This document shows, in pieces, positions 4,122 to 7,855 of a DNA stretch of 64,000 bases. The stretch covers positions 186,001-250,000 of the forward strand of contig NZ_JAROAV010000028.1 of assembly GCF_029439465.1 (NCBI RefSeq), written 5' to 3'. The notes below the pieces were generated by a model, which searched no databases, was not told where the DNA came from, and saw nothing but the letters and a program-made list of their open reading frames with translations. The stretch comes from Luteipulveratus flavus (GTDB lineage Bacteria > Actinomycetota > Actinomycetes > Actinomycetales > Dermatophilaceae). Both the position numbers and the translations under genes were made by a program. Position 1 is the first letter of the stretch, and each line of letters begins with the position of its first letter.

Positions 4122-4166
4122 CTAACGGGTGTACAAGCGCGTGACATACGCCGCGTTCGTACACCC
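4122..4166. repeat. 45-bp direct repeat, left copy (imperfect palindrome)
   Basis: Identical over 44 of 45 bases to 5142-5186, exactly 1,020 bp to the right; the one difference is A4135 versus G5155. The core is an inverted repeat with 15-bp arms starting GGGTGTAC and ending GTACACCC around a 10-nt centre. In this copy two of the 15 pairs are disrupted. It lies between the divergent FrnE-like and DUF559 genes. The sequence does not occur elsewhere in the window as far as I can see. Confidence 0.9.
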
Positions 4167-4224
4167 ACCGTGGCTGTCCACAGGGACTCCCGCGACGGTT
4201 CGGCTCTCGCGTCACACTCGGCCG

Positions 4225-5145
4225 GTGCCCGATCGTCACACCCGCCGGCGCCTCGTGGCGCCGCTCGCCCACCGCCAGGGCGGCGTTATCAGCCGCCGAC
4301 AGCTCGCCGCGCTCGGCATCGACCGGCACGACGTGCGATCCGAGGTCACGGCCGGACGGTGGCAGGTCCTTGGCCCGCAAGTGGTGGCCGTTGCCGAGGT
4401 GACCGGCGAGGGGCGGTACGCCGCCGCACTGCTCGGCGTCCGCGGGCTGGCGCGGCTGGACGGCACCTCGGCACTGATCTACTGCGGACTCACCGGCTGG
4501 CGCGAGGACGCCGTCCACGTGTCCGTGCCTCATGACACCCACGTCCGGTCGAGCGCGGGCGTGCGGGTCCACCGGGTGCGAGGGCTGGAACCGCCTGCGG
4601 TCGGCATCGGGCTCGCGACGAGCCATCCGACGTACGCCGTCATCCGTGCCGCGTCCTGGGCTCGCTCGGACCGGGCGGCCGCCACGATCGTCGCCATGGC
4701 CGTCCAGCAGGGCGTGGTCCAGCCGGACCGGCTGATCACGGTGTGGCGGGGCTGGCAGCGCCGCATCGCCCGCCGCGCCCTCATCGACCAGGTCGTGCGC
4801 GACGTGTGCGACGGTGCCCACTCGCTGGGCGAGCTCGACTTCGCCCGGCTGTGCCGCCGCCGTGGCCTGCCCGAGCCCGATCGACAGGTCGTACGCCGGG
4901 GGCCTCGCGGCCGCATCTACCTGGACGTGCGCTGGTCCCGCCTCGGGGTGGTGGTCGAGGTGGACGGCGCGCAGCACGGATGGGGTCTCGCTCCGGTCGA
5001 CGACGCGCTCCGGCAGAACACCGTGGTGCTGGACGGCGACGTGGTTCTGCGCGTCCCGGTGCTCGGCCTGCGGGTGAGCCCAGAGCCGTTCATGGATCAG
5101 GTCGAGCGGGCCCTGGCCGCTGCCGAACGCCGACTCGCCGGCTAA
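4225..5145 (+). CDS. AbiEi-like / DUF559 (PD-(D/E)XK-type) protein
   Basis: A 306-residue protein starting at GTG 4225; earlier in-frame starts would read through the left repeat. Residues about 5-60 look like the winged-helix domain of AbiEi-type antitoxins (LVAPLAHRQGGVISRRQLAALG, then GRWQVLGPQVV). The C-terminal third is a DUF559/Vsr-like nuclease fold: a strand with YLDVRW, then VVEVDGAQH about ten residues on, and VVLRVPVLGL near the end, giving the D, E and H spacing of PD-(D/E)XK enzymes. Such orphan genes are scattered through actinobacterial genomes and their role is unproven. No AbiEii toxin neighbours it. Its TAA stop falls inside the right-hand 45-bp repeat, so repeat and gene form one unit. 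Confidence 0.7.
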   Translation: MPDRHTRRRLVAPLAHRQGGVISRRQLAALGIDRHDVRSEVTAGRWQVLGPQVVAVAEVTGEGRYAAALLGVRGLARLDGTSALIYCGLTGWREDAVHVSVPHDTHVRSSAGVRVHRVRGLEPPAVGIGLATSHPTYAVIRAASWARSDRAAATIVAMAVQQGVVQPDRLITVWRGWQRRIARRALIDQVVRDVCDGAHSLGELDFARLCRRRGLPEPDRQVVRRGPRGRIYLDVRWSRLGVVVEVDGAQHGWGLAPVDDALRQNTVVLDGDVVLRVPVLGLRVSPEPFMDQVERALAAAERRLAG

Positions 5146-5186
5146 CGGGTGTACGAGCGCGTGACATACGCCGCGTTCGTACACCC
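5142..5186. repeat. 45-bp direct repeat, right copy (hairpin, includes the DUF559 stop codon)
   Basis: Right-hand copy of the element at 4122-4166. Here the palindrome is better: arms 5147-5161 and 5172-5186 form 15 pairs with a single G:U in RNA, around a 10-nt loop. It lies between the convergent DUF559 and TetR genes, where a hairpin could end transcription from both. That role would not explain the near-identical copy in front of the same gene. Confidence 0.9.
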
Positions 5187-5191
5187 GTTCA

Positions 5192-5938: not shown

Positions 5939-5964
5939 CACCCGCAGACGAAGGAGACCTCCGC

Positions 5965-7110
5965 ATGCCCCGCAACATCTACTCCGAGGACCACGAGGCG
6001 TTCCGTGCGTCGGTGCGCGAGTTCGTCGAGCGGACCCTGGAGCCGCGCGCCGAGGAGATGATCCGCGAGCACGTCATCCCGCGCGACATCTGGCAGGAGG
6101 CGGGCAAGCAGGGCTTCCTCGGCCTGGACATCCCGGAGGAGCTCGGCGGCGCGGGCGCGGGCGACTACCGCTTCAACGCAGTGTTCGCCGAGGAGGTCAG
6201 CGGCTTCACCGCGGCCGTCTCCAGCTGCTTCGGCATCCACGCCGACGTGTGCCCGCCGTACATCGTCGACCTCGGCACCGAGGAGCAGAAGCAGCGCTGG
6301 CTGCCCGGCATCGCCTCCGGCGAGCTGATCTGCTCCATCGGCATGACCGAGCCGTCCGGCGGCTCCGACCTCGCCGCGCTGAAGACCACCGCCGTCCGCG
6401 ACGGCGAGGACTGGGTCATCAACGGCTCCAAGACCTTCATCACCAACGGCCACCAGTGCGACCTCGCGATCGTCGCCGTGCGCACCGACCCCAGCAAGGG
6501 CGCCAAGGGCATCACGCTTTTCGTGCTCGAGGCGGGCACCGAGGGCTTCACCAAGGGCAACAAGCTGGACAAGGTCGGCCAGGTCGAGTCCGACACCTCC
6601 GAGCTGTTCTTCGACAACGTGCGCGTGCCGGACGCCAACCGTCTCGGACCCGAGGGCCAGGGCTTCATCGCGATGATGCAGCGCCTGCCGCAGGAGCGCA
6701 TCGGCGCCGCCGTCTCCAACGTCGCCCACGCGGCGAAGATCCTCGAGGAGACGATCGAGTACACCAAGGAGCGCAAGGCGTTCGGTCAGGCGATCGGCTC
6801 CTTCCAGCACAACAAGTTCAAGCTCGCCGAGCTGGTCACGCGCATCGAGGTGACCCAGGCGTACGTCGACGACTGCGTGGCCGCGCACGCCGAGGGCCGG
6901 CTGACCCCGGTGGACGCCGCGAAGGCCAAGTGGTTCTCCGCCCAGGTCCAGAACGACGTGCTCGACGAGTGCGTGCAGCTGTACGGCGGTTACGGCTTCA
7001 TGAACGAGTACCGGGTGGCCCGTGCCTGGCGCGACGCCCGCGTGACCAAGATCTGGGCCGGCTCGAACGAGATCATGAAGGAGCTGATCGGTCGTGACCT
7101 CGGGCTCTAG
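5965..7110 (+). CDS. Acyl-CoA dehydrogenase (LCAD/isovaleryl type by base position)
   Basis: A 381-residue FAD-dependent acyl-CoA dehydrogenase catalysing alpha,beta-desaturation of an acyl-CoA, passing electrons to ETF. The FAD/substrate signatures are SIGMTEPSGGSDLAAL and QLYGGYGFMNEYRVAR. The common C-terminal catalytic Glu motif (YEGT) reads IWAGSNEIMKEL here, so the base is not in that place. Glu244 in MQRLPQERIG matches the alternative helix-G base used by long-chain and isovaleryl-CoA dehydrogenases. A ribosome binding site (AAGGAG) precedes the ATG, and the operator lies just upstream. It is the first gene of an operon with three SDRs and a hydratase. The natural acyl chain is not predictable. 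Confidence 0.93.
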   Translation: MPRNIYSEDHEAFRASVREFVERTLEPRAEEMIREHVIPRDIWQEAGKQGFLGLDIPEELGGAGAGDYRFNAVFAEEVSGFTAAVSSCFGIHADVCPPYIVDLGTEEQKQRWLPGIASGELICSIGMTEPSGGSDLAALKTTAVRDGEDWVINGSKTFITNGHQCDLAIVAVRTDPSKGAKGITLFVLEAGTEGFTKGNKLDKVGQVESDTSELFFDNVRVPDANRLGPEGQGFIAMMQRLPQERIGAAVSNVAHAAKILEETIEYTKERKAFGQAIGSFQHNKFKLAELVTRIEVTQAYVDDCVAAHAEGRLTPVDAAKAKWFSAQVQNDVLDECVQLYGGYGFMNEYRVARAWRDARVTKIWAGSNEIMKELIGRDLGL

Positions 7111-7855
7111 GTTGTCCGGCAAGGTCGCGATCGTCACGGGCGCGAGCCGCGGCATCGGGTACGCGACCGCGGAGCGTCTGGTCGCCGAGGGCGCGAAGGT
7201 GTGCATCACCGCGCGCAAGCAGGAGGCGCTGGACGAGGCCGCGGCCCGGCTGGGCGGCCCGGAGGTCGCGATCGCGGTCGCCGGGCGCGCGGACGACGCC
7301 GAGCACCAGGCGGACGCGATCGCGCGCACGGCCGAGGCGTTCGGCCGCGTCGACGTGCTGGTCAACAACACCGGCATCAACCCGGCGTACGGGCCGCTGC
7401 TCGACCTGGACCCCGGCGCCGCGCGCAAGATGTTCGACGTCAACGTGCTCTCCGCGCTGGCGTGGACCAAGGCCGTGCACGCCGCCGGGATGAAGGAGCA
7501 CGGCGGCTCGGTCGTCAACGTCGCCTCGATCGCCGGCATCCGCCCGGCGCCGGGCATCGGCATGTACGGCGTCACCAAGGCCGCGCTGATCCACCTCACC
7601 GAGGAGCTCGCGATGGAGCTCGGGCCGAAGGTCCGGGTCAACGCGGTCGCTCCCGCCGTGGTGAAGACGCAGTTCGCGACCGCGCTGTACGAGGGCCGCG
7701 AGGAGCAGGTCTCGGCGCAGTACCCGCTCAAGCGGCTCGGCGTCCCCGAGGACATCGGCTCGGCCGTCGCCTTCCTGGCCTCGGACGACGCGTCCTGGGT
7801 GACCGGCCAGACGATCGTCCTGGACGGCGGCGTGACGCTGCGCGGAGGCGTGTGA
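7094..7855 (+). CDS. SDR-family oxidoreductase (first of three)
   Basis: A 253-residue classical short-chain dehydrogenase/reductase. The cofactor motif TGASRGIG is at about residues 15-22. The usual NNAG is NNTG, and the catalytic set includes Ser in VASIAG and YGVTK. It ends with the normal TGQTIVLDGG strand. The GTG start at 7094 overlaps the acyl-CoA dehydrogenase stop by 17 bases, so it is translationally coupled. By position it could oxidise a 3-hydroxyacyl-CoA formed after desaturation and hydration, but SDR substrates cannot be read from sequence. Confidence 0.88.
   Translation: MTSGSRLSGKVAIVTGASRGIGYATAERLVAEGAKVCITARKQEALDEAAARLGGPEVAIAVAGRADDAEHQADAIARTAEAFGRVDVLVNNTGINPAYGPLLDLDPGAARKMFDVNVLSALAWTKAVHAAGMKEHGGSVVNVASIAGIRPAPGIGMYGVTKAALIHLTEELAMELGPKVRVNAVAPAVVKTQFATALYEGREEQVSAQYPLKRLGVPEDIGSAVAFLASDDASWVTGQTIVLDGGVTLRGGV

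Follow-up and report, generated by a model that had tools for sequence, protein, structure and literature searches.

The window, that is, the whole 64,000-nucleotide stretch of Luteipulveratus flavus DNA that was analysed, contains a gene for a predicted AbiEi-like nuclease bracketed by two copies of a palindrome. The features of the locus are:

4122 to 4166, plus strand: left cognate palindrome (copy A), which sits in the promoter region separating two divergent genes, the DsbA-like gene (minus strand) and the AbiEi-nuclease gene (plus strand).
4225 to 5145, plus strand: AbiEi-nuclease gene, 306 amino acids, with a predicted AbiEi-like two-domain module (residues ~1-195) and a predicted Vsr/EDxHD-like nuclease (residues ~199-302).
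5142 to 5186, plus strand: right cognate palindrome (copy B), which contains the stop codon of the gene and lies between the convergent AbiEi-nuclease gene and TetR gene (minus strand).

Two adjacent open reading frames at 1060-2343 on the minus strand resemble, as we assume from a motif, ClpP-type protease genes.

The initial annotation had described two 45-nucleotide repeats around the gene, and this description was borne out: the copies agree at 44 of 45 positions (98%, one difference), their starts are 1,020 bp apart, and the TAA stop codon of the AbiEi-nuclease open reading frame (5143-5145) falls inside the right copy. Each copy had also been taken for an imperfect inverted repeat of 15 bp, which holds insofar as both copies fold as hairpins, but the right palindrome is longer than that, with arms at 5144-5161 and 5172-5189 that are 18 nucleotides in length and 94% complementary, forming a near-perfect hairpin from 5144 to 5189. 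The folding energy was -23.7 kcal/mol (z -3.8) for the left copy and -33.7 kcal/mol (z -6.5) for the right copy. A 24-base half-element, with up to three mismatches permitted, detected just the two known copies within the window and gave 0 matches in 100 shuffles of the window, in keeping with the earlier claim that the similarity is not due to chance. The window genome has two further copies of this palindrome, 84-87% identical, at unrelated intergenic sites, and it also carries other genes of the AbiEi-nuclease family with different repeats. When the genome and 37 relatives were searched, the window palindrome was matched in 2 of the 38 genomes, the window genome itself and the congener G002.

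The gene had been assigned to a DUF559/AbiEi type. The AbiEi part of this assignment was supported (AbiEi_4, 26.2 bits against a Pfam cut-off of 25), but DUF559 stayed below threshold (12.5 against 20.6); across the family, DUF559 matches 8 of 32 members, with E values up to 0.01. The PADLOC AbiEi profile matched the window protein with an E value of 4.5e-11. In an AlphaFold2 model of the protein (mean pLDDT 90), residues 2-195 could be placed on the AbiEi antitoxin of S. agalactiae (6y8q) with a Z score of 12.8 over 181 residues, and both the N-terminal winged helix and the C-terminal AbiEi domain are present. The same fold comparison placed residues 199-302 on the catalytic domain of I-Bth0305I with a Z score of 7.5, which is under Z 8, and on the AbaSI/PvuRts1I enzymes with Z scores of 6.0 and 5.8; PvuRts1I was also matched in a profile search with the window protein (E 0.0033). 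I-Bth0305I and PvuRts1I/AbaSI share a Vsr-like core. Residues E203, D234, E245, H251 and D260 are invariant in 32 sequences and again in 39, the latter alignment having been made after exclusion of 11 of 50 initial proteins, including two with stop codons, and we take these to be the putative catalytic residues of a PD-(D/E)XK-type core. The predicted protein is a fusion of an AbiEi-like module with a nuclease of Vsr/EDxHD-like (PD-(D/E)XK-like) type. No AbiEii-type toxin gene was found on either side of the window gene, the neighbours being the DsbA-like and TetR genes.

Comparison with congeners bears on how the two copies are maintained. The ortholog in G001, whose protein is 70% identical, occupies the corresponding position, again beside the DsbA-like gene, and is flanked by two identical palindromes of a different sequence from that of the window. 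The two copies within a genome agree at 39 of 40 positions in the window and 40 of 40 in G001. Between the two species, the palindromes agree at 23 of 40 positions without gaps, or at 29 of 37 aligned positions (78%) when gaps are admitted; the corresponding values are 77% for the DNA of the gene and 78-81% of aligned positions for the adjoining spacers. The ungapped value had led us to consider that the palindromes diverge faster than their surroundings, and this idea was dropped, since the gapped palindromes are as similar as the spacers. The argument for concerted evolution stands without it: both copies within each species carry the differences between the species, and the comparison therefore shows, at the level of sequence, that the left and right copies at the window locus evolve in concert. 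A tandem-duplication scar, one of the three options offered initially, would fit a single locus viewed alone, but the identical layout with a different palindrome in G001 contradicts it. The pairs found at 67 of 96 loci (see below) and the 0 of 100 shuffles count against a scar or chance, and we give this explanation next to no credence.

The syntenic site in G002 has the same neighbour genes, separated by ~440 bp, and neither the gene nor a window-type palindrome; although it lacks the gene at this locus, G002 retains a window-type palindrome elsewhere. One could envisage from the absence of the gene and both palindromes that the unit is a mobile cassette, a single-gene transposon with hairpin ends, and ends that can be direct (45 pairs) or inverted (22 pairs) would be compatible with this. 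However, the gene holds a syntenic position in two congeners (G000 and G001), and inspection by eye against G002 revealed no target-site duplication at the window locus. None of 72,556 plasmid records matched the gene, and the single match among 50,697 phage records was to a fecal scaffold with a GC content of 74%, unannotated and titled 'UNVERIFIED'. The phage-labelled homolog on this scaffold, which is outside our survey, has a palindrome pair too (score 30). Single-gene transposition was also considered for G085, which has two near-identical copies of the gene, and was rejected because this duplicate, the one recent case examined, lies in a duplicated segment at least 21,985 bp long. The cassette claim therefore fared poorly, and we regard it as highly improbable. 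The G085 duplication is direct and 99.96% identical (C1, ~5,322-27,306 and 96,000-117,984), with its right end at an insertion sequence. This insertion sequence, presumably IS481-like, lies inside a downstream palindrome at locus L154 (~5956-7265), and at L155 it adjoins one half of another such palindrome, of different sequence.

A homolog of the gene is present in 151 of the 186 genomes of the window's family. The survey of loci (33 plus 80 named, minus 9 duplicates, equal to 104) yielded 96 with both flanks, some of which are truncated or interrupted matches; four have in-frame stops. Pairing was measured as the best local match between the upstream and downstream flanks (+1 for a match, -2 for a mismatch), with a threshold of at least 18. 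A shared flank repeat at this threshold was found in 67 of the 96 deduplicated loci, which upholds the earlier proposal that the flanking repeat could serve as a handle on the family. Among control comparisons, the threshold was reached by 1 of 227 neighbouring genes, that one lying beside the gene in L044, by none of 93 outer flanks taken before deduplication, and by 93 of 9,120 flank pairs mismatched between loci, which probably come from loci with related palindrome types. The other 29 loci fell below the threshold, 20 of them scoring under 16, and when the flanks of these low scorers were extended to 1 kb, one match appeared (L147), which is not palindrome-like in appearance. It had also been suggested that one repeat might be common to DUF559 genes. 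No such repeat was found among these loci, where the palindromes vary by lineage; the window pattern was absent from the other homolog loci tested except that of G001 and a chance-like match at L053/L069.

Most of the shared stretches are imperfect to near-perfect palindromes, and a few form no more than weak hairpins. The arms are usually ~15-24 bases (24 being the maximum scored) and the loops 3-9 bases (the range searched). The 67 pairs comprise 45 in direct and 22 in inverted orientation, and the median position relative to the matched span is -153 for the upstream copy and +51 for the downstream copy. Where a neighbouring gene was called, 21 of 62 upstream copies lie between divergent genes, and 46 of 64 downstream copies precede a convergent gene. 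In-frame stops within the matched span were seen in the homologs at L084, L117, L135 and L137, the last of which keeps a clear palindrome pair. By eye, many loci have a YAT-like triplet in the loop region within a GC-rich inner stem and mismatches in mid-stem; the triplet and the mismatches may mark a core for cleavage or recognition.

The more alike two proteins are, the more alike are their palindromes (Mantel r 0.51, p 0.001) among 51 of the 67 paired loci, 16 having been dropped for a weak hairpin score, an in-frame stop or a short match. Joint regression attributed this relation to the AbiEi-like half (0.24 and 0.32) and not to the nuclease (0.01), though in sliding windows nuclease residues 241-265 gave correlations equal to those of the AbiEi-like half (0.24-0.29); all of these values may be inflated by shared ancestry. 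AbiEi binds two 23-bp inverted repeats that are 3 bp apart, and neither AbiEi nor Rv2827c binds the sites of the other (PMC7319586). This known site size and private specificity fit the palindromes found here. I-Bth0305I, for its part, binds as a dimer to a target nearly 60 bp long (PMC3943268).

Twelve joined cognate palindromes were compared with the 12 genomes to which they belong, with at most 40 candidates scored per genome. Among the matches listed, 150 rows represented 109 distinct places, and every one matched the genome's own palindrome. At least 83 of these places are away from the cognate gene, with at least one such place in each of the 12 genomes, and the number of places per genome ranged from at least 3 to at least 19. 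Copies away from the cognate gene are called dispersed here, and some of them may adjoin other genes of the family. For a further 12 palindromes, the search covered 10 genomes: the genome of L145 was left out, and two of the palindromes share G204, which matches both. Among the matches listed, 145 of 150 rows were again on a genome's own palindromes. The remaining five rows represent four places in G207 that match the palindrome of another Micromonospora. Two of the four are 1,063 bp apart and bracket a gene of the same family, which is 77% identical to the gene of the other species and 51% identical to the other gene of G207 itself. Judged from these identities, palindrome type in this one test case is following the lineage of the gene, not the genome. 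That the palindromes are associated with the gene, and that each type is specific to its gene, we regard as close to certain.

The surroundings of 60 dispersed copies were surveyed at 42 loci in 7 of the first 12 genomes with a custom gene caller. Intergenic DNA contained 57 of the 60 copies, mostly at the 3' ends of genes, while the surveyed DNA was 21% intergenic by the same caller. The neighbouring genes were convergent for 33 copies, in the same direction for 23 and divergent for 1; 1 copy was inside a called gene and 2 had no assignment. Twenty of the 60 copies are not independent, as they belong to five clusters in G124 (L207-L211). Each of these is a tandem array of 3-5 dispersed palindromes, with a period of ~62 in L208, L210 and L211, 73 in L209 and 103-134 in L207. 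Compensatory changes in the stems were found in the G041 family, where only 0 or 1 of 500 shuffles reached the observed value, and had no support in the G126 family, where 76 to 267 of 500 shuffles did so. Six G041 sites were compared by eye with the congeners G039 and G040, one of which, L192, was unalignable across the site. The palindrome is missing from L191 in both congeners and from L193 and L194 in G039. In G040, L193 and L194 have another hairpin at the corresponding position, as do L187 and L189 in either congener. These differences would fit a turnover of palindromes, of which the clean absences alone would indicate gain or loss; a different hairpin at an orthologous site could instead reflect local divergence.

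The initial annotation had held that its idea would fail if the repeat proved to be an ordinary intergenic terminator found genome-wide and unrelated to DUF559 genes. This applies by half: the repeat does occur at scattered sites, yet it remains linked to the gene. Alternatively, the AbiEi-nuclease gene could be a bystander, and the hairpins either ordinary transcription terminators or REP-like elements that another enzyme spreads; their preference for 3' ends and the 46 of 64 downstream copies before a convergent gene agree with this, and REPs behave similarly (PMC3733652). Against it, the Y1/HUH transposase (RAYT/IS200-type; PF01797) was matched in 0 of 12 genomes, in a search that gave control matches in 5 of 14 known genomes, which also makes a RAYT hidden elsewhere in the genome unlikely. 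Moreover, the palindrome type in G207 goes with gene orthology and not with the genome, and paired flanks are rare at neighbouring genes (1 of 227). We consider the bystander explanation improbable.

The main rival is that the AbiEi-like protein is a transcription regulator acting on operators across a regulon, the identity of the sites being kept by selection for binding. AbiEi proteins autoregulate via inverted repeats near the promoter (PMC7319586), and the position of 21 of 62 upstream copies between divergent genes would suit such a role. The 3'-end sites of the dispersed copies, however, count against a regulon: convergent (33) and same-direction (23) positions dominate and 1 of 60 is divergent, copies occur in tandem clusters of 3-5 in G124, and the downstream copy that precedes a convergent neighbour (46 of 64) has no obvious operator role. 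A regulator with its regulon is thus unlikely in our estimation.

The arrangement resembles in several respects the REPtrons, which combine REPs with RAYT (TnpA-REP). In both, intergenic palindromes are found chiefly at 3' sites between genes that converge or run in the same direction, and in short tandem clusters, the palindrome type is specific to the enzyme, and the enzyme gene is flanked by cognate copies (here at 67 of 96 loci and in the G207 case). REPs are also targets of insertion sequences (PMC8450116), and one palindrome here has an insertion sequence inside it; by analogy, that insertion sequence may target these palindromes. Unlike in REPtrons, the enzyme here is predicted to be not Y1/HUH but AbiEi-like and PD-(D/E)XK-like, and because it fails the Y1/HUH test by which REPtrons are defined, the system is REPtron-like and not a REPtron. 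REPs are 20-40 bp long and usually present in more than 100 copies (PMC3733652, PMC2817692), whereas the palindromes here are somewhat longer (~40-50 bp) and the listed copies fewer (at least 3 to at least 19 per genome). A GTAG or CGTC end tag was not noticed by eye as a shared feature of the 67 palindrome pairs. CGTC-tagged REPs, too, are dispersed palindromes that lack an associated RAYT (PMC3733652); they have no known dedicated enzyme, whereas the palindromes here have a candidate.

Each half of the protein also has known relatives. AbiEi antitoxins, of the type IV toxin-antitoxin system AbiE, and Rv2827c have the two-domain fold seen in residues 2-195, and their 23-bp inverted-repeat pair is about the size of one palindrome here (PMC7319586). 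In contrast to AbiEi, the protein here is fused to a nuclease domain, the window gene has no AbiEii-type toxin gene beside it, and the sites are also found downstream of the gene and genome-wide. EDxHD/Vsr-like homing endonucleases such as I-Bth0305I, together with PvuRts1I/AbaSI, gave the best fold matches for the C-terminal half; unlike for homing endonucleases, no intron, intein or phage context was seen here, and it is the palindrome that would spread and not the gene.

On balance, we think it probable that the locus represents a chromosomal, self-paired palindrome-nuclease system, REPtron-like but with an unrelated enzyme. Weighing against this are the 29 loci below the pairing threshold, the presence of just two dispersed, diverged copies in the window genome, the palindrome that G002 has elsewhere although it lacks the gene at this locus, the unclear compensation in the G126 family and the nuclease fold match under Z 8. 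Among the three options originally listed, this is the nuclease gene with its own recognition hairpins, recognition being something that we infer. We have good confidence that the AbiEi-like half recognises the cognate palindrome, which it could read as two half-sites of ~20 bp, by analogy with the 23-bp repeat pairs of AbiEi. For copying of the palindrome driven by the nuclease, we see the chances as even. The Vsr/EDxHD-like half would nick or cut the DNA in or close to the palindrome, or where a new copy is to be inserted, and repair templated by another copy would homogenise the pair and seed dispersed copies, a process akin to homing but with the palindrome in place of the gene as its object; the upstream copy may double as an autoregulatory operator. 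The system would then be an undescribed selfish or domesticated element in which the AbiEi-nuclease drives copying of its private hairpin, and not of its own gene, to sites around the chromosome, a proposition that could fall either way. On that reading, and with the same evenly divided expectation, the REP/RAYT strategy would have arisen a second time, independently and with a nuclease of the homing type, in an actinobacterial family in which most genomes have a homolog.

No description of private palindromes paired with an AbiEi/DUF559 nuclease was found in the open-access literature searched, and we take the palindrome-nuclease pairing to be new; its mechanism is what we infer. Among the palindrome families in the literature searched, REPs alone have a candidate enzyme, and the spread of REPs is still termed poorly understood (PMC8266576). 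If our interpretation is true, a second, unrelated enzyme with private palindromes would mean that the strategy has evolved at least twice, and the question would become testable through dozens of natural, swappable enzyme-site pairs. It would also provide a function for a large family of proteins named merely 'DUF559' or 'AbiEi antitoxin'.
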